From: an uncultured Clostridia bacterium | Lineage (GTDB): Bacteria; Bacillota; Clostridia; Christensenellales; CAG-138 | Direction: 5' to 3' | NCBI GenBank assembly: GCA_947168855.1 | Contig: CAMVNO010000001.1 | Location: 325,077-389,076, forward strand | Length of the DNA stretch: 64,000 bases | Shown here: one piece after another, positions 21,162 to 30,540 of the stretch | Position numbering within the stretch: position 1 is the stretch's first letter | Layout: each line of letters starts with the position of its first letter | The notes under the pieces: model-generated | Seen by the model: only the letters and a program-made list of their open reading frames with translations | What the model was told of the DNA's origin: nothing | The model's database searches: none | Translations under genes and position numbers: made by a program

Positions 21162-21290
21162 AAAAAAGCTCACCGAGATGAGCTTCTATTCATCTCATCT
21201 TTCAGCTAATGCTGCGGGAATTAGCACCTTGCAAATGCAGGTTGCCGGACTTCACAGGGCCCGTCCCTCCGTCACTCTTGATAAGGCTAT
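21162..21290 (-). promoter_or_regulatory. SAM-I (S-box) riboswitch with terminator
   Basis: On the reverse strand the leader begins CTTATCAAGAGTGACGGAGG (about 21285 downward). It continues with GTGAAGTCCGGCAACCTG, AAGGTGCTAATTCC and AAAGATGAG: all the conserved S-box core blocks in order. The aptamer spans about 21191-21290. A terminator AGCTCA...TGAGCT plus six T (reverse strand) sits at 21162-21185. GATGAGATG (aptamer 3' side) can pair with CTCATCTC of the terminator, giving the mutually exclusive antiterminator. SAM binding should stop metK transcription. Confidence 0.96.
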
Positions 21291-21725: not shown

Positions 21726-22070
21726 GTTACCTGCCTCCTTTAATCGATACGGGTCGATTCTTATCCTCTTTTATTGTAAACATTATAACCGTGATTTGCA
21801 ACAAAAAATCGAATTCTATGTTACAAAATTACGAACTTTTTCATTTTCGCCCGGAACCGGTACGGACTGCAAGCTTGCGCGCAATCAATTTGCAGCATTG
21901 TATTCTGATAACGGACTTGCCCGCAAAAGGTTGGCAGCGACAGATTTTCGTCGCGAACGCGTTTACAAGCGATCAGATAATCCGAGCGTGACCATGGTTC
22001 ATGCGGGAAGCGCGCAATCTTCCTCTGTAACGAAGCGAAGCGGCAGCGGAACAAAACACAGCGACGACGT

Positions 22071-22095
22071 GGTACGAGTCTTGATAACGGACTTA
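22071..22095. repeat. 25-bp direct repeat, left copy
   Basis: GGTACGAGTCTTGATAACGG followed by ACTTA. It matches 24 of 25 bases with a copy at 25306-25330; the core GATAACGGACTT recurs a third time at 21907-21918. The two 25-mers bracket the serine hydrolase, GNAT and NUDIX genes. The 21726-22070 stretch otherwise holds no gene I can support. Confidence 0.75.
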
Positions 22096-22100
22096 ACAAA

Positions 22101-22138
22101 AAGCGAGTGTTCATAGCATCCGTTATGAACACTCGCTT
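22101..22138. terminator. Long perfect hairpin (15-bp stem)
   Basis: AAGCGAGTGTTCATA (22101-22115) and its exact complement (22124-22138) with an 8-nt loop. It lies beyond the repeat that follows the serine hydrolase stop, so on the reverse strand it is the probable transcript end of that unit. Confidence 0.75.
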
Positions 22139-22139
22139 T

Positions 22140-22231
22140 GTGAAAGACCGCGTAAAAGGACACCATAGCATAGAAAGACCGCCTAAAAGATACACTTTAA
22201 GCAACTCGGCAAACAGGAAAATGTCAATATG
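22140..22231 (-). repeat. Cassette-type repeat, copy 1 (~92 bp)
   Basis: Begins GTGAAAGACCGCGTAAAAGG on the plus strand and ends 4 bp from the serine hydrolase stop. It contains two direct sub-repeats, reverse strand CTTTTA(G/C)GCGGTCTTTC, about 31 nt apart. It is closely similar to copies at 23708 and 24458; similarity to the 23708 copy runs through its whole length (GGCAAAC..., TGTCAA... blocks). It is not an inverted repeat. Confidence 0.8.
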
Positions 22232-22235
22232 ATGC

Positions 22236-23597
22236 TTAAAGCTTTCTGCAGGTGAAATCGTCGAACATCAGACAGCCGTCGCCGAATATCAGCGTGAGCA
22301 TACCGCCCTTGTAGCCGAACTCATCCTCGCCGACAGGATAGAGGCGGAAGGTCATTTCATCCCCATCGTCTATGGCATGGACATGAAGCTCTCCATCTTT
22401 CATGAAGACCTCGTCCACGATAAAATCGGCGTCTTCGGGGTGCTCGTATTTGCCGCAGAAGCTCTCCCACTTCGACTTGTCCGGATTCGGGATCGCGATA
22501 TCCTCGATGGTTTGGATGGGCTTGGGTTCCTCGCCTCTTGCGATTGCCCGCATACCCTCGTAGAAGCCGCCGTAGCCCCTCTCGTCCTCGGGATAGCGGC
22601 AGCAGAGAAACACAAGCACCCGATCCGCATCCAGAAAACGCTCGTAATGGCTGACATATCCGGGCCAACCGCCGTCATGCAGAACGACGTGTCCCAACTC
22701 CGGGTAACTGTAAATATCCCAGCCGAAGCCGTAGCCAATCTCGTGATCCAGTGCCCAGCTCCCATGCTCCCCATTGTTCAGTTTTCCGGGAGAATACATG
22801 AGGGCCTGCTCTTCCGGCGTCAGCAGCTTCCCTTCCCGCAGGGCGCGGTCCCAGGCGAGCATATCGAAGACGTTGCTGTATACATAGCCGTCACCGGCTG
22901 ATCCATCCAGAAATACCACATAGCTAAACTCTTCCAGCTCATCCGGAACGGAATATTTCCCGTCTCGGAGTACCAGACCGCGGGCAAAGTTCTCGAAGGG
23001 GATCCCGTCGACCCGAATGTGACAGACCCGTGTGGAAAGCATCCCGGCGGGTTCAAAGATTTCCTTGCGCAGGAAGTCCTCAAAAGGTATTCCGGAGACC
23101 TGCGCCACAATTTCAGCCAGCAGACAGTAGGCGGTGTTGGAGTATTCAAATTTTTCCCCCGGCGCGAACTCCGGCTTCAAACCGCTCTCCTTCAGGAAAC
23201 GCACGCAAAGCGCATTCGTGGGGATCGTTTTATCGTCCTTGAAGGTTTTCATGGCCCACGACTCGTGATCGGGTAAGCCGCTGGTGTGGGTCAGCAGGTG
23301 GTAGATCGTGATGCCGGGATAGGGATTCTCCGGGAAGAATTTGGAAAGCTCGTCCTCCAGACGCAACAGTCCGCGCCTGCGCAGCAGCATAATCGCCGCT
23401 GCGGTAAACTGCTTGCTGACAGAAGCAATTTCAAATATGCTCTCTTCCGTGATAGGTTTCTTTTCCTCCGGATCGCAAAATCCAATCGCGCCTTTACTTA
23501 CGATCTTGCCGTTTTCCGCATACAGCCACGTGCCAGTGAAAACGTCCTTTTCATGTGCTTCACGGACCATTATTTCCATTGCTGTTTTCTTATCCAT
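22236..23597 (-). CDS. Serine hydrolase, class C beta-lactamase/penicillin-binding-protein-like
   Basis: A 453-residue protein with the three motifs of the beta-lactamase class C-type serine hydrolase family: S59-V-S-K62 (ASVSKQFTAA), Y152-S-N154 (EYSNTAYCLL) and HDGG in place of KTG. There is no signal peptide, so it is probably a cytosolic esterase or D-aminopeptidase rather than a beta-lactamase. The ATG at 23597 has AGAGGAG upstream, and a promoter (TTGTAT, 17 nt, TATAAT at 23635-23663) gives it its own transcript. It is the left-most of three single-gene units, each followed by the same repeat. Confidence 0.87.
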   Translation of the reverse strand: MDKKTAMEIMVREAHEKDVFTGTWLYAENGKIVSKGAIGFCDPEEKKPITEESIFEIASVSKQFTAAAIMLLRRRGLLRLEDELSKFFPENPYPGITIYHLLTHTSGLPDHESWAMKTFKDDKTIPTNALCVRFLKESGLKPEFAPGEKFEYSNTAYCLLAEIVAQVSGIPFEDFLRKEIFEPAGMLSTRVCHIRVDGIPFENFARGLVLRDGKYSVPDELEEFSYVVFLDGSAGDGYVYSNVFDMLAWDRALREGKLLTPEEQALMYSPGKLNNGEHGSWALDHEIGYGFGWDIYSYPELGHVVLHDGGWPGYVSHYERFLDADRVLVFLCCRYPEDERGYGGFYEGMRAIARGEEPKPIQTIEDIAIPNPDKSKWESFCGKYEHPEDADFIVDEVFMKDGELHVHAIDDGDEMTFRLYPVGEDEFGYKGGMLTLIFGDGCLMFDDFTCRKL

Positions 23598-23634
23598 AAA
23601 GATTCGTCTCCTCTGATTGCGATAAGTCGGGAGA

Positions 23635-23663
23635 ATTATACCATAACCGCCCCCGCTATACAA
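23635..23663 (-). promoter_or_regulatory. Promoter of the serine hydrolase gene
   Basis: Reverse strand TTGTAT (23658-23663), 17-nt spacer, TATAAT (23635-23640); about 38 nt upstream of the ATG. Confidence 0.65.
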
Positions 23664-23664
23664 G

Positions 23665-23703
23665 AAGGGACCTCTTTTTCTTGGCAGACAAAAGAGGTCC
23701 CTT
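23665..23703. terminator. Hairpin between cassette units (GNAT/serine hydrolase junction)
   Basis: AAGGGACCTCTTTT (23665-23678) pairs perfectly with AAAAGAGGTCCCTT (23690-23703). The loop contains GGCAGAC. Similar hairpins with a GGTAGAC loop occur at 24413-24455 and 25109-25152. Confidence 0.75.
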
Positions 23704-23707
23704 TGTG

Positions 23708-23801
23708 GTGAAAGAACGCGTAAAAGTGTATCAGGGCATAGAAAAAACCGCCAGAAAGTACACCAGCAGCGGAGCTTGGCAAACTGGTATTTGTCAACTT
23801 G
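23708..23801 (-). repeat. Cassette-type repeat, copy 2 (~94 bp)
   Basis: Starts GTGAAAGAACGCGTAAAAGT and aligns with copy 1 along its length, including the AGC...GGCAAAC and TGTCAA...TTG tail blocks. It lies between the stop of the GNAT gene (23821) and the hairpin at 23665-23703, the same position relative to a gene as copy 1. Confidence 0.8.
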
Positions 23802-23820
23802 TTCGGTTTTGCCGAAAAGA

Positions 23821-24345
23821 TCATTTCAGCGGCAGCACAGCGACTTCCTCCGCATCTTCATAATCGCTGTCTTTCTCACCGTTCGGCGCAAATCCAAATG
23901 AGGCGTACAGATGCCTGGCTGCTTCATTTTCCTGATCGTATGATGTACTCCATGTGTCTTCCTCTCCATCCGGAAATGATAGAACATAGTCCAAAAGAAG
24001 GTTCAGTGCATCCCTTCCGAATCCTTTTCCTTGAAATCTGTGATCGATCATAAATCGCCAAAGATAATAGCTGTGGCGATATATTTCCGCCATACCGTTG
24101 TATTCTTCGGAATGGTGTCCGATCATAGCAAATCCGACCGCTGTGTCTCCATCGTAGATACCGAAACACTGAACAAATCTGCCGCTTGCATTTACGGCAT
24201 AAGCCTGAGCCATACTCACCGTGTTCGAAGCAACGTAGTCTTTCTGCGATTCATCAACTTCAAGCTCCATCAGATCAACGAAGTTATTGTCGTTCACCTT
24301 TTCAAGTCTTATCCCTTTGTTTTTCAGTTCATATCTGCCTGTCAT
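23821..24345 (-). CDS. GNAT-family N-acetyltransferase (BltD/spermine acetyltransferase-like)
   Basis: A 174-residue acetyl-CoA-dependent transferase. The acetyl-CoA loop is HRFQGKGFGRDALNLLLDYV (Q/R-x-x-G-x-G/A pattern) and the C-terminal catalytic region is ENEAARHLYASFGFAPNGE. The N-terminal VASNTVSMAQAYA resembles polyamine acetyltransferases such as BltD; the substrate is inferred only. The ATG at 24345 was chosen because GGAGGC lies 7 nt upstream. It is the second of the three cassette-like units; AT-richer than the core genes. Confidence 0.87.
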   Translation of the reverse strand: MTGRYELKNKGIRLEKVNDNNFVDLMELEVDESQKDYVASNTVSMAQAYAVNASGRFVQCFGIYDGDTAVGFAMIGHHSEEYNGMAEIYRHSYYLWRFMIDHRFQGKGFGRDALNLLLDYVLSFPDGEEDTWSTSYDQENEAARHLYASFGFAPNGEKDSDYEDAEEVAVLPLK

Positions 24346-24412
24346 TTTATGCCTCCTCAAATCCGGATTTACCGAATTCATTCTACCAATCGTTTTTTTG
24401 TCCGAAATGCAG

Positions 24413-24455
24413 TAAAAAACTTCTCTTTCCTCGGTAGACAAAAGAGATTTCTTTC
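24413..24455. terminator. Hairpin between cassette units (NUDIX/GNAT junction)
   Basis: Imperfect stem TTCTCTTT / AAAGAGATT with loop CCTCGGTAGAC; same type as those at 23665 and 25109. Confidence 0.6.
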
Positions 24456-24457
24456 AT

Positions 24458-24507
24458 GTGAAAGACCGCGTAAAAGGACACCAAACCATAGAAAGAACGC
24501 CTAAAAG
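24458..24507 (-). repeat. Cassette-type repeat, copy 3 (50 bp, shorter)
   Basis: GTGAAAGACCGCGTAAAAGG onward is nearly identical to copy 1 for 50 bp, then diverges. It lies between the NUDIX stop (24548) and the hairpin at 24413, the same arrangement as copies 1 and 2. Confidence 0.8.
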
Positions 24508-24547
24508 ACATTCCTCAAACACTTTCAGAAAAAAACGTTATCCGAAT

Positions 24548-25054
24548 TTATACGTTTTCCAAATCGAAGAAGTATCCAAGCGTATCGACAAGTTCGCCGT
24601 TATCGAACAGCTCTTTTATTGCAGCTTTATTCATCCAGATTGTCTTTGCTACTTCTTTCGTCGTCGCTGAGCGAAGATCAACTTCACCATCATAATCGAA
24701 GGACCAGACGTCGACGATATCAGAAAACCTGATGCCATTTACGACTCTGCCTATCGTGGAACAAACCAGTTTTCCATTGTTCGGCAATAGCGATAATCCC
24801 ACTTCTTCCTTTGTTTCACGAAGCGCACCGCTCAAACTGTCTTCGCCTTTGAGCACCGAGCCGCCGACACACTCCCACTTTAGGGGATGCATCGGACGAT
24901 CCGCGCTGCGTTGAGAAATCAAATACTCGCTTTTGCTGTTTCTGATCCAGACATGTACTACAAGATGATAATACCCGTCCGGGATAGTATCGCCGCGGAT
25001 ATGGTCGAGCCCGGTCAATTCTCGCCGTTCATTATACAAATCCCATATTTCCAT
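24548..25054 (-). CDS. NUDIX hydrolase
   Basis: A 168-residue NUDIX protein. The full box GGSVLKGEDSLSGALRETKE EVG fits G-x5-E-x7-REUxEExGU. The N-terminus (MEIWDLYNERRELTG) and DGYYHLVVHVWIRNS resemble the IPP-isomerase-like/YfcD NUDIX branch. The substrate is unknown. The ATG at 25054 has GAGGTG upstream and its own promoter at 25080-25108. It is the third and right-most unit of the array; 18-nt and hairpin features lie immediately upstream. Confidence 0.88.
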   Translation of the reverse strand: MEIWDLYNERRELTGLDHIRGDTIPDGYYHLVVHVWIRNSKSEYLISQRSADRPMHPLKWECVGGSVLKGEDSLSGALRETKEEVGLSLLPNNGKLVCSTIGRVVNGIRFSDIVDVWSFDYDGEVDLRSATTKEVAKTIWMNKAAIKELFDNGELVDTLGYFFDLENV

Positions 25055-25079
25055 AGAAAGCACCTCGTCAGACGATGAT

Positions 25080-25108
25080 ATTATACTGAAACGAAACGCT
25101 AAGTGCAA
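25080..25108 (-). promoter_or_regulatory. Promoter of the NUDIX gene
   Basis: Reverse strand TTGCAC (25103-25108), 17 nt, TATAAT (25080-25085). Confidence 0.7.
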
Positions 25109-25152
25109 CAAGAAAACCTCTTTTGCCCCGGTAGACAAAAGAGGTTTCTTTT
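25109..25152. repeat. Hairpin with GGTAGAC loop at right end of the array
   Basis: AAGAAAACCTCTTTT...AAAAGAGGTTTCTTTT, a near-perfect stem. It is the fourth hairpin of the array series but lacks the GTGAAAG repeat beside it. Confidence 0.7.
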
Positions 25153-25153
25153 C

Positions 25154-25171
25154 TGGCGCGCCTGGCAGGAT
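25154..25171. repeat. 18-bp copy of the tRNA-Arg 3' end
   Basis: TGGCGCGCCTGGCAGGAT is identical to 41830-41847, the 3' 18 nt (with CCA) of tRNA-Arg(ACG). After it the sequences differ at the next base. This could be an old attachment-site copy left by an element that targeted the tRNA. Confidence 0.65.
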
Positions 25172-25172
25172 A

Positions 25173-25267
25173 CGGCATTTCTCCTTAAAAATAAACAAGG
25201 AAGAAATGCCGAGCACGCGGCTTTCGCCGCGTATACGAACCTCGGTTCGAATCTTCCATCATGTAGC
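25173..25267 (+). other. Structured non-coding segment with hairpins and a T-arm-like stretch
   Basis: CGGCATTTCTCCTT pairs with AAGGAAGAAATGCCG (one bulge), then ACGCGGC-TTTC-GCCGCGT forms a second hairpin, then CTCGGTTCGAATCTTCC resembles a tRNA T-arm. The arm does not pair properly and no anticodon arm exists, so this is not a working tRNA. It may be a tRNA-derived remnant or a structured RNA. Confidence 0.4.
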
Positions 25268-25268
25268 C

Positions 25269-25305
25269 AAAGAAAAAACCCACCTCACGGGTGGGTTTTT
25301 TCTTT
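25269..25305. terminator. Strong bidirectional terminator
   Basis: AAAGAAAAAACCCACC / GGGTGGGTTTTTTCTTT with a 4-nt loop; it separates the array from the retron. Confidence 0.9.
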
Positions 25306-25330
25306 GGTACGAGTGTTGATAACGGACTTA
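25306..25330. repeat. 25-bp direct repeat, right copy
   Basis: GGTACGAGTGTTGATAACGG plus ACTTA, 24/25 identical to 22071-22095. It directly follows the terminator and precedes the AT-rich retron. Confidence 0.75.
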
Positions 25331-25400
25331 GAAAAATGGCCCAAATTGTGACAGCCACATACCTATTCCAAGATTAGCAATTATTATATTTGTATTGGTT

Positions 25401-27068
25401 TTAGCTATTGCTCTTGATATGTTCAATAACCAAATGAATAGGGACAAACCCTTGATTTATGGCATGTTCTGATTCTTCCATGCTAACAGCTCCGCCCTTT
25501 ATTATTCCTACTATCTCATGACTCAAGTTTAAAACGACACCGCCACTTGCACCGTGAAGAACACGACCGCTTACGGCATAAAATGAAGAACCCATATAAT
25601 ACTTTGTGCCTATAATATTACAAGTTTGGATTGTTACAGAATTACCTTTCAAGTATTCTGGATATCCTATCATGATGACAGTATCGCCTATTCTTAGTTT
25701 TCTACTATCGCCCAAAGGGAATACAAGCTCTGGATTTATCTTTTTAGTTGTTATGCTATAAAGTGCATAATCTATATTGTAATCAGAAGACTTATCAGTA
25801 ATACCCCTGTCCGCAAAAGATAGTGGTTCTTCACCATATGATTCAATAGAAAAAACTCCGAAATGTTCTCCTTTCTCTGTAACATGAAAACTTGTCAACA
25901 GCCCATAACCAGGGCAAAAAAAGCCGCTACCTTGTTCTGTCGCATCTGCTGTAGATAGAATAAATACACTATTACGAATACAGGCATCAAATCTTTCAAG
26001 GTTTGTAATATCAAAATAAGGGGTTTGAAAAATCTCATTGTAACGTTTTGCATAAGATAAGTAAGTCAGATCTTTGTTGCCTTTTATCATACGCAAATAA
26101 TTAATCTTTCCAATTAAAACCTGCGAAAACCAAGCTCGTATTTCATCTTCTTTATCAGGATCATTGATAATTCTTTTAATGTAATCATTCTTACAGTAGC
26201 CTTTTTCAACGAACTGTTTTGCAGTATTAAAAACCCCGTATATCCTACAATGGTGAAGTATAGCTCTTAATTGCTTGATGTAACTCCGACGGGGATTTAA
26301 CCGTTCGTTCACTGTAATTCCTGTAACCTCTTGTCTGCAGGCTCTTGTTCTTAATGATATCTTTTTCGGATTAATTGCAAATGAATGCTTAGATAAAACA
26401 CGTTTTATTTCATCTCCTAATTCTATCGTTCCATTATTATTATAGACAATTCCTTTATCGAATTCTTTATATGTTGAAAAAGTAATATCGTCTGCGTATC
26501 TGGAATAATGGCACCCTGTTTTCTTGGCAAGGCGCATAAGTGCATTATCAAGTGGTGAACATATCATATTCGTAATGATGGGAGAACACGGTGAGCCCTG
26601 AGGCAACCGTCCATTATAGCAAGCGATTTGGGCAATTGTTATTGCTGCTTCTTTTCCTATAGAATAAGGCGGTTTGATAAGCATTCCCAATATTCTACCG
26701 AAATGAATTTGATCGAAAAAATCTTTTAAATCAAGATTAAGAATGCTTTTCTTGCATAAATGCTTTTCTGCATTATCTACAAAACTTTTACCACTTACAA
26801 AACCATATACGCAAGGTTTTGGCGAATACATCGCAGATAGTATTACTGAAAGCTTTCTTTGAATACTTTTCAGCCGTTCATCTGGTGCACAGATTATTCG
26901 AAGCGAGCCATCTTTTTTGGGAATAGAAAAAGACTTGTAATTATTCTGAAGCCGAATTTTATAAAGAAAATATCGAAGACTTCGCTCCTCAATACTAAGC
27001 AGTTTAGCGACATCTTCACGAGTTTTTAATGAATAAAACGAATCAACTACAGACATCTGTTCCATCAT
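25401..27068 (-). CDS. Retron reverse transcriptase fused to a trypsin-like serine protease
   Basis: A 555-residue fusion. Residues 1-330 are a retron-type reverse transcriptase. They show the retron-specific NAxxH as N99-A-E-K-H103, LDLKDFFDQIHF (112-123), LPQGSPCSP (155-163), catalytic YADD (191-194) and the retron VTG at 248-250. Residues 370-555 form a trypsin-like protease with an apparently complete triad: H395 (LLTSFHV), D433 (YNIDYALYS) and S508 (HGASGG). The RT should copy the msd RNA encoded just upstream into branched ssDNA; the protease is the probable defence effector. The gene is much AT-richer than core genes, so it was acquired horizontally. The start MMEQMSVV follows GGAG. 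I do not assign a retron type number. Confidence 0.92.
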   Translation of the reverse strand: MMEQMSVVDSFYSLKTREDVAKLLSIEERSLRYFLYKIRLQNNYKSFSIPKKDGSLRIICAPDERLKSIQRKLSVILSAMYSPKPCVYGFVSGKSFVDNAEKHLCKKSILNLDLKDFFDQIHFGRILGMLIKPPYSIGKEAAITIAQIACYNGRLPQGSPCSPIITNMICSPLDNALMRLAKKTGCHYSRYADDITFSTYKEFDKGIVYNNNGTIELGDEIKRVLSKHSFAINPKKISLRTRACRQEVTGITVNERLNPRRSYIKQLRAILHHCRIYGVFNTAKQFVEKGYCKNDYIKRIINDPDKEDEIRAWFSQVLIGKINYLRMIKGNKDLTYLSYAKRYNEIFQTPYFDITNLERFDACIRNSVFILSTADATEQGSGFFCPGYGLLTSFHVTEKGEHFGVFSIESYGEEPLSFADRGITDKSSDYNIDYALYSITTKKINPELVFPLGDSRKLRIGDTVIMIGYPEYLKGNSVTIQTCNIIGTKYYMGSSFYAVSGRVLHGASGGVVLNLSHEIVGIIKGGAVSMEESEHAINQGFVPIHLVIEHIKSNS

Positions 27069-27087
27069 TACTCCTTTTGAAAGGTCT

Positions 27088-27236
27088 GGGGAGAATTCTA
27101 CCTTCTGAACGAAATGTAATTCCTAAGGACAATGATACAAAGTCCGACATGATCATTGCAGGGAACAATGTATAGCCATTGAACATATCCGTTGCTGTAC
27201 AGCGCTAACGAAAAACAATTCTCCCCTTTCCTTTCT
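27088..27236 (-). ncRNA. Retron msr-msd non-coding RNA
   Basis: Between promoter and RT gene, the reverse strand carries a1 (GGGGAGAATT, 27217-27226) and its exact complement a2 (AATTCTCCCC, 27088-27097). Eleven nt after a1 comes TTAGC, whose G (complement of 27205) matches the branching guanosine context of known retrons. A small stem GCTG-TA-CAGC follows. The msd hairpin has TTCC / GGAA at its base (27162-27165 with 27120-27123) and CAATGAT / ATCATTG inside (27152-27158 with 27130-27136), with a 15-nt loop. Total length is about 140 nt. The exact msr/msd boundary is not determined. Confidence 0.8.
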
Positions 27237-27241
27237 TTGCT

Positions 27242-27270
27242 ATTATAACAAAAATGATTATTTCTGGCAA
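27242..27270 (-). promoter_or_regulatory. Retron promoter
   Basis: Reverse strand TTGCCA (27265-27270), 17 nt, perfect TATAAT (27242-27247). The start would be about 9 nt before a1, so msr-msd and RT share one transcript. Confidence 0.78.
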
Positions 27271-27375
27271 TATAGCTAGAAAACGAAAATAGCATATTTC
27301 TATTCTTTCGCACATTCGTCTTTCGGACCGGATTCTGCTATGCTGTGAGCAGAAAGACAGAAGGAGGTCTGGAAT

Positions 27376-27750
27376 ATGGAAAAGTACATTACGGATGAGC
27401 AGAATGGGTTGGAGTATGAACTGGTCGGGGATTATTACATCGTCGCAGGAGAGGACGAGCCGCCGGCAAGACCGATCGGAGTATGGGGCGCACGGCGTCG
27501 GGACTTCTTGAAACAGCATCGACAAGGATTATATTTTGAGCTGCTGTTCTCCGGGAAGCTGAACGATCACCTTGCCGACGTCGAGGAGCAGGCGCAGGAT
27601 ATGATGTGGAATCTGACCGAGAAAATGAAGCAGGCGCAAGGCGTGACCGAAGACCTGAAACGAAGGGATCAGATGACGTGGGTCGGCACGGTCAACAATA
27701 TCCGTAACCAAATCGAAGAGATCATAAGAAACGATCTGATATATGTATAA
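27376..27750 (+). CDS. tnpV: Transposon-encoded protein TnpV
   Basis: A 124-residue protein of the TnpV family found in Tn4451-type mobilizable transposons of Clostridia. Typical features are YITDEQNGLEYELVGDYY, RPIGVWGARRRDFLKQH and the C-terminal LIYV. Its role in transposition is unclear. AGAAGGAGG precedes the ATG. No recombinase lies beside it: the only one in the window is 12 kb away at 40061, so this is probably a remnant of the element that delivered the retron. Confidence 0.85.
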   Translation: MEKYITDEQNGLEYELVGDYYIVAGEDEPPARPIGVWGARRRDFLKQHRQGLYFELLFSGKLNDHLADVEEQAQDMMWNLTEKMKQAQGVTEDLKRRDQMTWVGTVNNIRNQIEEIIRNDLIYV

Positions 27751-27763
27751 TCCGAAATACAGG

Positions 27764-27794
27764 AACAGCCGCCGTTTTATCGGCGGCTGTTTTG
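27764..27794. terminator. Bidirectional terminator between tnpV and the ABC permease
   Basis: AACAGCCGCC / GGCGGCTGTT stem, 8-nt loop, TTTTG tail. Confidence 0.85.
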
Positions 27795-27828
27795 CGCTTA
27801 ATGGTGTCGCAGCGAAAGGTCTTTGCTT

Positions 27829-30540
27829 TTATAGATTCTCGTTCTTCAAGGCGTCGATTGGGTTGTCCTTTTTAAGCCTGTTCCGCGCGTAAAGCATCGT
27901 TGCAAACACGACGAGGAACACCGAACCGACCGCGATCGCGATGCTGTGCCATGGCACATAGAAGCCGCGTTGAAGCTCCTGTGCGACGATCCGGTGGATC
28001 AGGAACGTGACGCCGATCGAGACCGGAAGACCCAGAAGCAGCGCGCGCAGTCCGTAGATGGCGCACTCGTAGCTGAGCATTCTGCGCATGCCCTTCTCCG
28101 TCATGCCGATCGATTTCAGCATTGCGAACTCCCTGCGCCGCAGCATGATGTTCGTGCTGATCGTGTTGAACACGTTTGCCGCCGCGATGAGCGAGATCAG
28201 GATGATGAAGCCGTAGGCGAACACGTTGACGACGCCGACGATCATGCGGCTCTGTTCGCGCTCCTCCGCGATGTCTCCCGCATAGCCGTTATAGCGCCAA
28301 TCGGCGTCCTTGATCCGATCGAGGATCGCCGTCGTGAAGCCCTTGTGGTCGGTGACCGCAAAGAACATCTGCGCCTGCGTCTCGCCGCTCAGAACCGTCG
28401 GATCGAGGCGCGAGAACGGATAAATGATCGACGCGTTTTCGGTCGGGATGCAGAAGTCGTCCGTCTTGACGAACGCGTCAGCCGCAAAGGTCAGCGTCTC
28501 GCATGCCTCCTCGATCGGGAGCACGGCGTCCGCCATTGCGATGTCGAGCGTACGGCTGTACTCGTTCTGCGCATCCATCACCGCATGCCAGTAGTCCTCC
28601 GGATAGTACGCGATCCGCGTTTCCGATGCTTCGGGATCGTAATCGTACTCCCAGATGAACCCGTCGCGGACCCGGACCTTTGGCGTCGAAACCGTTGCGG
28701 GCAGCGCGTCGGAACGGAACAGATCGAAGCGATACCGCTTTGAGCCGTTTGAGCTGTAAACGGTGTGCGTAATGTCGCTGTTCATCAGCACGCCGTTGGG
28801 GTTCTCGGAATCGAAATACGGTTCCGGATCGACGCCGCTTGCCCTGCACAGGTTGCGGAACGCGGCGTCCTCCAGATACAGCACCTGTACGGGCACAAAC
28901 ATTTTGCCGTCCGCCTCGGTGCGGCTGGTCGGAACGCTCTTGAACGCATCGGTCAGCAGCGCGGGATCGGTCGTATAGCCGTCGAGTTCGTAGCTCCATA
29001 CATAGTAATACGCCGAGCGCGTGACGCCCTCATATGTACGCATTTCGCGCATCATATCGTCCACGACGCCGACCGGCACGTTCGCGAACACGTCGACGTT
29101 CGTGCTGTCGGACAGCGTTTTCACCATATCGGTGAGGTAGGCGCAGAACGACGAGGCGGAGATGAACAGCACCACGCTCATGAACAGGGAAATGACCGTC
29201 GCGCGGTAGCCCTTGCGGTTGCGCTTGAAGTTCTTCGCGCCCATCGTGCCCTCGAAGCCGAACAGCTTCCCGGTCAGCTTCGACGTTCTGACCTCCCGCG
29301 GCCTGATCTTTACGTCCGTGCTCTGCCGGATCGCCTCGATCGGCTGCAGTCTTGCCGCTTGCCGTGCGGGAACCGTCGCGGAAATCAGCACGGTGATGAG
29401 CGCGATGACCGCCGCGATCAGCAGCGCGACCGGATGCAGCACGAGGCGCATCGTAACCGCCGAGCCCGGCATGAGCCGCGTAAACGTGTCCTTCAACGCC
29501 CACAGCGTGACCCCGATGCCGAGGCAGCCGATGAGAAGCCCGACCGGGATGCCGATGCCCGAAAGCACCAGCGCTTCATAGCGCACGGATGCGCGAATCT
29601 GCTTTTTCGTCGCGCCGATCGATTTTAAGATGCCGAACTGGCGCGTGCGCTCGGAGACCGAGATCGAAAACGCGTTGTAGATCAGCGAGATCGACCCGAA
29701 CATGACGAGCAGCACAAGGACGCCCGCAAGACCGTACAGCATGGTCGTGATCGTATCGTCGCCGAACGAGCCGTACAGGCGCATCAGCGAACGGTTGGAC
29801 CCCCAGTTGTCCGAAAAGGTCTGCGCGCTCATGGTGCGCTTGAACAGATACGGATGCTTCACCGTAAAGAATACGGTATTCTCGCCCGTTCCCTGTCCCT
29901 TCGTGAATGCGCGAAAGCCCGTGCCGCCGACCGAGGGATCGAAGCTGCGGTAGACGCCGACGACGGTGTAGGTCATCGGGACCGCGTCGCGGACGGTCTC
30001 ATCCGTCCACATCGGATCGTACTCGGACAGCGGTTCGCCGTTCGGATCGACTCTGGTTCCGATCGACAGCGTGACGGTTCTGCCGAGTTCAAATGCCGAA
30101 AGGTCCGCGACCTGCGATGTCGAAACAAAGCGCGACGAAAGGATCAGCTCATGCTCGTTTTCGGGCATGCGGCCCTCGACGATGCGCTCCGCAATCAGCG
30201 GCGCATCGTTCGATAGCGCGTCGACAAAGAGCGCGGGACGACCCGCCGTTTCCGGATCCTGCGCCTCATAACCAACCGTCTGCCACGACGTGACCACGTT
30301 CCGTACGAACGATTGTTTCCCGACGCGCTGCGCCTCCCCGTCCGAAAGACGCGTAAAGTATGCATGGTAGTTTCCGGCATCCTCTGCGATCACGCCGCGC
30401 ATATAGCAGAGCCCGCTGTATGCGCCTTCGATGACGGCCGTTAACAGCGCCATCGAAAGCACGATGCCGATGATCGTGACGAGCGTGCGCATGCGGTTCT
30501 TTTTGAGCGCGCGCCTTGTAAAGGTATGCAGAATGTTCAT
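27829..30540 (-). CDS. ABC transporter permease (FtsX/MacB type, two FtsX domains)
   Basis: A 903-residue membrane protein. An N-terminal TM helix (RTLVTIIGIVLSMALLTAVIEGAY) is followed by an extracellular MacB-type domain, then a first FtsX block of TM helices around 255-390. A second TM and large extracellular segment follows, with a final FtsX block at about 780-890. Such permeases do mechanotransmission or peptide export and resistance rather than ordinary transport. The ATG overlaps the ATPase stop (ATGA). It is likely controlled by the adjacent two-component system. Confidence 0.9.
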   Translation of the reverse strand: MNILHTFTRRALKKNRMRTLVTIIGIVLSMALLTAVIEGAYSGLCYMRGVIAEDAGNYHAYFTRLSDGEAQRVGKQSFVRNVVTSWQTVGYEAQDPETAGRPALFVDALSNDAPLIAERIVEGRMPENEHELILSSRFVSTSQVADLSAFELGRTVTLSIGTRVDPNGEPLSEYDPMWTDETVRDAVPMTYTVVGVYRSFDPSVGGTGFRAFTKGQGTGENTVFFTVKHPYLFKRTMSAQTFSDNWGSNRSLMRLYGSFGDDTITTMLYGLAGVLVLLVMFGSISLIYNAFSISVSERTRQFGILKSIGATKKQIRASVRYEALVLSGIGIPVGLLIGCLGIGVTLWALKDTFTRLMPGSAVTMRLVLHPVALLIAAVIALITVLISATVPARQAARLQPIEAIRQSTDVKIRPREVRTSKLTGKLFGFEGTMGAKNFKRNRKGYRATVISLFMSVVLFISASSFCAYLTDMVKTLSDSTNVDVFANVPVGVVDDMMREMRTYEGVTRSAYYYVWSYELDGYTTDPALLTDAFKSVPTSRTEADGKMFVPVQVLYLEDAAFRNLCRASGVDPEPYFDSENPNGVLMNSDITHTVYSSNGSKRYRFDLFRSDALPATVSTPKVRVRDGFIWEYDYDPEASETRIAYYPEDYWHAVMDAQNEYSRTLDIAMADAVLPIEEACETLTFAADAFVKTDDFCIPTENASIIYPFSRLDPTVLSGETQAQMFFAVTDHKGFTTAILDRIKDADWRYNGYAGDIAEEREQSRMIVGVVNVFAYGFIILISLIAAANVFNTISTNIMLRRREFAMLKSIGMTEKGMRRMLSYECAIYGLRALLLGLPVSIGVTFLIHRIVAQELQRGFYVPWHSIAIAVGSVFLVVFATMLYARNRLKKDNPIDALKNENL

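Follow-up and report, generated by a model that had tools for sequence, protein, structure and literature searches.

Type XI retrons, reportedly defined by Mestre et al. in 2020, join a reverse transcriptase (RT) and a trypsin-like protease. Among better described relatives, the available part of a study of Eco2 (Ec67, type I-C) presents that retron as a self-inhibited trimer with its multicopy single-stranded DNA (msDNA), proposes that phage DenB degrades the msDNA and so frees the effector, and mentions that RT-protease fusions exist (PMC12405507). The available part of a Hachiman study reports that the Hachiman protease cuts an adjoining pro-nuclease and that in the Avs, Lamassu, Hachiman and defence-associated RT (DRT) pairs the protease is fused N-terminally, its gene lying beside that of a metallo-beta-lactamase (MBL) pro-nuclease (PMC12799240). 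Here we analyse 64,000 nucleotides of an uncultured Clostridia bacterium (contig CAMVNO010000001.1, positions 325,077 to 389,076; the whole stretch is called the window), in which a reverse-strand gene encodes an RT fused to a trypsin-like protease. A reading of the bare sequence (the original prediction) had called this a complete retron with its own msr-msd RNA and promoter, and the family models, the structure, the a1/a2 covariation and the a1/a2-like stems found family-wide support that assignment. The novelty that it implied for the fusion is less secure, as RT-protease fusions are an already catalogued retron type (PADLOC XI) and, as said above, appear in print.

A retron-type RT fused to a trypsin-like protease

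The top PADLOC matches of the whole protein were two RT-Protease_XI models (PDLC02959 and PDLC02960; 3.4e-161 and 4.7e-160), the better match spanning residues 9-552, followed by RT-TIR_XII (2e-118, residues 9-350) and RT-Toprim_I-C (1.3e-102). Pfam placed RVT_1 at residues 49-252 (1.5e-24) and Trypsin_2 at residues 380-522 (1.5e-12); PADLOC, Pfam and the modelled structure thus give the type XI layout, a single gene with the RT followed by a C-terminal trypsin-like protease. Among the NCBIfam models the RT was nearest to the Ec67 (3.9e-98) and TIR (1.4e-92) retron RTs, with scores under the models' own cut-offs, as expected for a protein with a different C-terminus. The NCBIfam group II RT/maturase model gave 58.4 bits (6.6e-16) and did not reach its cut-off of 300 bits. 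Set against the retron models for the whole protein (PADLOC), for the RT part (PADLOC RT-TIR) and in NCBIfam, this value argues that the RT does not belong with those of group II introns, a placement that the original prediction had named as fatal to it. In a Foldseek list retron RTs took ranks 1-18 and the earliest RT of a diversity-generating retroelement came at rank 27.

Relatives on genome contigs were found with an alignment as the query, the best 80 matches being kept; a query of the genome contigs with a single protein gave no relative. The RT-protease open reading frames (ORFs), 45 in number, came to 43 loci once the duplicates L008 (of L001) and L009 (of L030) were dropped, their start codons being picked by script; two later finds, L241 and L246, stand outside the 43. 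An alignment (A2) of 37 of these loci, the window included, omitted the plasmid loci L013-L017 and also L080, which reaches the end of its contig. The aligned relatives are 27-50% identical to the window protein.

Retron RTs are marked by NAxxH-like and VTG motifs (the names are those of the original prediction). Together with YxDD, both motifs are found in the window RT at the residues predicted, and the model scores and the alignment agree in placing the RT in the retron class. Across A2 there is no variation at H103, Y191, D193, D194, V248 or T249; N99 and G250 are kept in at least 90% of the 37 proteins. The predicted protease triad (H395, D433, S508) is likewise present, in 37/37 with the window counted, and all 37 members matched both RVT_1 and Trypsin_2. 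The retron is real and apparently intact.

An upstream RNA enclosed by a1 and a2

Upstream of the gene lies an msr-msd RNA enclosed by inverted repeats, a1 and a2, which form the perfect 10-bp pair of the original prediction (Table 1). Two relatives define this RNA: L018 from Clostridium sp. DSM 17811, one of the best 80 matches, whose RT-protease is 50% identical to that of the window, and L246 from a genome of the same class (48-49%). In a three-way RNA alignment of the window, L018 and L246 (A6), both sides of the a1/a2 helix had changed in 4 of the 10 pairs while all 30 cells remained paired, and 6 of 500 column shuffles matched the covariation score. The pairs of the msr hairpin at 27190-27210 do not vary, which is conservation and gives no evidence of covariation; the region between msr and a2 varies among the three, as expected of an msd. 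The window RNA (27086-27228, reverse strand) folded at -42.6 kcal/mol with a z score of -3.28 that 1 of 200 shuffles equalled, and the other two RNAs gave z scores of -3.77 and -4.29. Folding and covariance, proposed as a check with the original prediction, favour the RNA, with the compensated pairs coming from three sequences.

Upstream stems were also compared across the family, the best enclosing stem at each of the 43 distinct RT-protease loci being scored against 232 open frames from the same loci, which were mechanical frames of at least 200 codons rather than curated genes. The median score was 15.3 for the loci and 10.4 for the controls (Mann-Whitney p 1e-14); 25/43 stems lay above the 95th percentile of the controls and 15/43 above the 99th. 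As a group the homologues thus carry far stronger upstream stems than the controls, contrary to the lack of such structures in homologues that the original prediction had named as its other refutation. In a narrower shuffle test no more than 2 of 200 shuffles equalled the stem at 27 of the 43 loci. The sequences of the a1/a2-like stems differ among groups of loci. In seven loci (L016, L061, L062, L072, L080, L112 and L145; two on viral contigs, the other five alphaproteobacterial RT-protease loci) a2 runs into the script-chosen GTG start, so that an a1/a2 duplex would mask the start of the RT gene.

Among the loci fetched, the msr motif as an exact pattern stood beside an RT in the window, L018, L246 and the window copies L001, L008 and L201 only. 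Seven viral stretches fetched by this pattern carried the exact motif with no RT in the fetched DNA and were set aside as chance matches.

Two details of the predicted RNA fared less well. The msd hairpin appears in both the RNA and the single-stranded DNA folds, but is weak as DNA. The branching G had been placed in the TTAGC at 27205; that motif is present and its G is kept in all three sequences, but the assignment is doubtful because TTAGC sits within the conserved hairpin. By analogy we favour G27216 as the more likely branching G, its position matching what we take to be that of the Ec86 branching G. Rfam gave nothing at gathering scores near the retron, and at E values up to 5 over 24900-27500 it gave 16 sub-gathering matches, none within 27086-27228; 13 of the 16 cluster at 25194-25395 around the terminator, the best being NrrF (0.0037).

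Effectors exchanged on a related RT

In the same family, 6/103 genomes matched at 1e-20, the window's own included, and the other five were all RT-Toprim retrons; in the same order, 5/396 matched at 1e-70, namely the window's own genome, a full RT-protease (G290), two RT-Toprim loci (G039 and G024) and L012, which has internal stops. At 1e-70 the search of the same class found its own genome and G879 among 391, G879 being the only match among the 22 genomes of its order, and at 1e-110 the same-phylum search found its own genome alone of 398. Of 8 matches in phage records none covered 80% of the protein, 5 of 47 plasmid matches did, and a further viral search added one RT-protease, L241 (32% identical).

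The effector at the C-terminal position varies. PADLOC called L003-L007 RT-Toprim (type I-C) in 5/5 cases (L004 and L007 from the same genus, L003, L005 and L006 from the same family), as it did L041, and L081 carries TIR there. A Pfam scan of 54 of the 103 rows without a protease match found TIR in four and Mrr in two, with other domains singly and most rows having no Pfam effector. A quick maximum-likelihood tree of 127 RT domains (127 of 145 clustered rows; 145 of 169 before clustering) joined the window and L018 as sisters (SH-aLRT 99). On this tree the protease label changes 16 times, at least three of these changes being forced by well-supported branches, where the label "other" means no match to a six-sequence protease hidden Markov model, so that divergent proteases may be miscalled. 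Because the label changes so often, it seems from the sequences that one RT scaffold has carried protease, Toprim, TIR and other effectors in exchange for one another.

Three loci merit separate mention. L048 joins a related RT to an Mrr-like nuclease C-terminus, and L068 has weak methyltransferase matches at that place. In L066 (5953-7564, Parcubacteria), labelled "other" in the tree although its protease lies in the next frame, RT and protease occupy two overlapping frames, a layout that could stem from a natural split, from a frameshift or from faulty assembly.

Protease kinship

Taken alone, the window protease domain matches LmuA of Lamassu (9.6e-7). The L018 protease matches LmuA (5.1e-10) and HamA1 of Hachiman (3.3e-5), and five of the 37 family members match Avs1b (best 4.6e-6). 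A pro-nuclease partner was sought among the neighbours. No gene family lay within 4 kb of more than 3/43 loci, some of which end within that distance; none of nine Pfam-scanned window neighbours was MBL-like; and no HxHxD[HG] frame lay within 4 kb of the window copy, by a simple pattern that a divergent MBL could escape. Frames with this pattern at 2/43 loci were considered as MBL partners and rejected, neither being MBL-like by eye.

Genomic setting and expression signals

The locus is islet-like. The unit at 25305-27307 has 35% GC in a window of 55%, and the lowest-GC 1668-bp stretch of the window starts at about 25601, inside the unit. The retron had no match in any of the seven same-genus stretches fetched next to the orthologous ABC transporter (0/7). 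In G057 the sequence in common with the window ends at 27307; G065 keeps both flanks, that of the S-adenosylmethionine (SAM) synthetase up to 21849 and that of the ABC transporter from 27833, but the roughly 1.8 kb separating them is different DNA, and nothing matches 21850-27832; and in the remaining five the match ends at 27812-27833. Given the low GC, the absence from same-genus stretches and the RT-Toprim retrons in 5/103 same-family genomes, the sequence is consistent with a mobile defence module occupying a variable site.

Nine neighbours were scanned with Pfam: TnpV, a Beta-lactamase-family hydrolase, GNAT, NUDIX, SAM synthetase, an ABC ATPase, a two-component pair and one gene without a match. 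The tnpV gene (27376-27750, Pfam TnpV 4.7e-38) lies upstream of the retron in divergent orientation, within the sequence that G057 has in common with the window. At 22070-25336 the hydrolase, GNAT and NUDIX genes are each flanked by the same short repeats, D1 (65 nt) and D2 (39 nt, hairpin-forming), with D4 (32 nt) at both outer ends, an arrangement like a cassette array; more copies of these repeats occur elsewhere in the genome, and the D4 copy at 25305-25336 starts about 65 nt beyond the retron stop codon. An ordinary SAM riboswitch (21192-21287) precedes the SAM synthetase gene.

A promoter directly upstream on the same strand had also been predicted, and a promoter-like site is there. It ranked first of 10 candidates in a scan expected to give 8.1 sites by chance in 2.5 kb, so the promoter is argued for by its strength and place. 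From a2 to the start codon is 19 nt.

Table 1 Features of the retron unit, in window coordinates
Feature	Position	Strand	Basis
RT-protease fusion gene	25401-27068	(-)	555-aa ORF; PADLOC RT-Protease_XI 3.4e-161; AlphaFold2 (AF2) model pLDDT 91.8, pTM 0.83
RT domain (RVT_1, residues 49-252)	26313-26924	(-)	NAEKH 99-103, YADD 191-194, VTG 248-250
HtrA/Deg-like trypsin-fold protease (residues 380-522)	25503-25931	(-)	triad H395, D433, S508
a1, GGGGAGAATT, 5' arm of msr-msd RNA	27217-27226	(-)	10-bp perfect pair with a2; 4/10 pairs compensated in three sequences
a2, AATTCTCCCC	27088-27097	(-)	perfect complement to a1 over 10 bp
Favoured candidate branching G, directly after a1	27216	(-)	G in 3/3 (window, L018, L246)
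Alternative branching G (TTAGC)	27205	(-)	kept 3/3; within conserved hairpin 27190-27210
msr hairpin 1, CGTTAGC...GCAACG	27190-27210	(-)	6 pairs, unvarying in 3/3; proteins 48-50% identical to the window's
Possible msr hairpin 2, CAATG GCTATA CATTG	27166-27181	(-)	minimum-energy fold of window RNA; not kept in relatives
Probable msd hairpin, CAATGAT...ATCATTG	27130-27158	(-)	RNA fold and single-stranded DNA fold; region varies among relatives
3' part of msd, CAGAA near end	27101-27128	(-)	RNA fold; CAGAA before a2 kept 3/3
Promoter-like TTGCCA-17-TATAAT, extended -10 TG	27242-27270	(-)	consensus matches 11/12
Ribosome-binding site AAGGAG	27071-27076	(-)	from sequence
Intrinsic terminator-like hairpin, 3' of gene	25278-25292	(-)	sole site in scan; chance level 1.8

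Discussion

We think it probable that the locus is a complete type XI retron, likely acquired by horizontal transfer, whose protease is gated by msDNA and acts on phage infection. A single promoter would drive the msr-msd RNA and, just downstream, the RT-protease polypeptide; the RT would convert the msd to msDNA by reverse transcription and remain bound to it, and the RT-msDNA complex would keep the fused protease inactive. Damage to or alteration of the msDNA by a phage would release the protease or rearrange it into an active form, which would then cut a host or phage protein not encoded alongside and so stop the infection. That msDNA gates proteolysis is plausible from the likeness to Eco2; that proteolysis is the killing step, and what it would cut, we infer.

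Several results weigh against this reading. From the window sequence by itself the a1/a2 pair is suggestive only, since chance is not negligible there: 5/200 dinucleotide shuffles of the upstream region reach an equally good stem, a looser test finds one in 39/232 control open frames, and the 64 kb hold, in 8 places, 12 perfect inverted pairs of ten bases whose arms lie 90-170 nt apart, a1/a2 included. The covariation test covers three sequences, and its structure, being taken from the window, starts with an advantage in the control where partner columns were slid by 1-3 and pairing fell from 100% to 40-52%. The enclosing stems of 18/43 loci lie within the 95th percentile of the controls, for some of which script-guessed starts may be the explanation. 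As 71 nt of single-stranded DNA the msd folds weakly (z -0.95, with 35/200 shuffles as good), and the nine scanned neighbours form no recognisable defence island. In searches of the open-licence literature, outside which most subscription papers fall, we found no account of a type XI retron that makes msDNA, gives defence or acts as a protease, nor of the mechanism of this type. Its conservation in relatives is what makes the a1/a2 pair firm.

The main alternative to masking, by analogy, is a protease controlled by oligomerisation: the RT-msDNA complex would keep the fusion in one assembly, and a switch to another would join the protease domains, as reported for Hachiman HamA. We regard this as rather unlikely, though it deserves serious weight. 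Protease-cJun fusions were toxic according to the available part of the Hachiman study (PMC12799240), the L018 protease matches HamA1 and both it and the window protease match LmuA, and Eco2 is described as a trimer held by msDNA in the available part of its report (PMC12405507); the mechanism proposed for Eco2, however, is occlusion of the active site.

It is improbable that the protease instead cleaves its own fusion, freeing RT or protease, with something else as the toxic step. The absence of a recurrent candidate-substrate neighbour (no family near more than 3/43 loci) would suit such a course, as would the already separate RT and protease frames of L066, but relatives carry other effectors at the same place, Toprim in L003-L007 (5/5) and TIR in L081. 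The 43 fused loci give no evidence either way, because they were chosen for having both domains in one frame. It is very unlikely, too, that the copy has decayed or fallen silent in this strain: the unit is low in GC and foreign in its host, but its frame is open, all catalytic residues are there, and the promoter-like, ribosome-binding and terminator-like sites are present. Least credible of all is an RT that makes some other cDNA, as in DRT systems, with the upstream RNA a mere leader; the RNA matches no Rfam family and the msDNA is a prediction, yet the best retron models (3.4e-161 and 3.9e-98) far outscore Drt2 (7.4e-9) and the group II intron model (6.6e-16), and a1/a2, a conserved msr and a variable middle are the retron pattern.

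For the preferred reading of an msDNA-gated protease, the window copy offers a test case of how RT-bound DNA might control a protease, being compact and complete-looking, with two relatives that define its RNA. We also advance, tentatively and with somewhat more doubt than confidence, a wider proposal: RT-protease retrons may be self-contained msDNA-gated proteases akin to those of Lamassu, Hachiman and Avs, working without a pro-nuclease on a host or phage protein, the protease having been gained or lost several times on the RT scaffold. If they are self-contained, the lack of a pro-nuclease partner means that the target must be some protein that ordinary host cells contain or that phages bring with them. 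The substrate of the retron protease, which has no such partner, unlike the related proteases, is therefore a well-posed question.

Comparison with known systems

The nuclease-protease pairs of Avs, Lamassu, Hachiman and DRT share a kin protease with the window (LmuA for the window domain, Avs1b in 5/37 family members), whereas the retron protease is C-terminal and no MBL pro-nuclease partner was found within the searched neighbourhoods. With type XI (PADLOC RT-Protease_XI) the window shares the single gene for RT and trypsin-like protease and the upstream a1/a2 RNA; the exact msr motif of the window, L018 and L246 was found in no other RT-protease locus fetched, window copies aside. Retron-TIR (type XII) has a like RT domain (2e-118, residues 9-350) and the same one-polypeptide layout, the effector there being TIR. 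The nearest solved relative is Eco2 (Ec67, type I-C), an RT-Toprim retron whose effector, according to the available part of its report, is a Toprim RNase (PMC12405507), where the window carries a protease.
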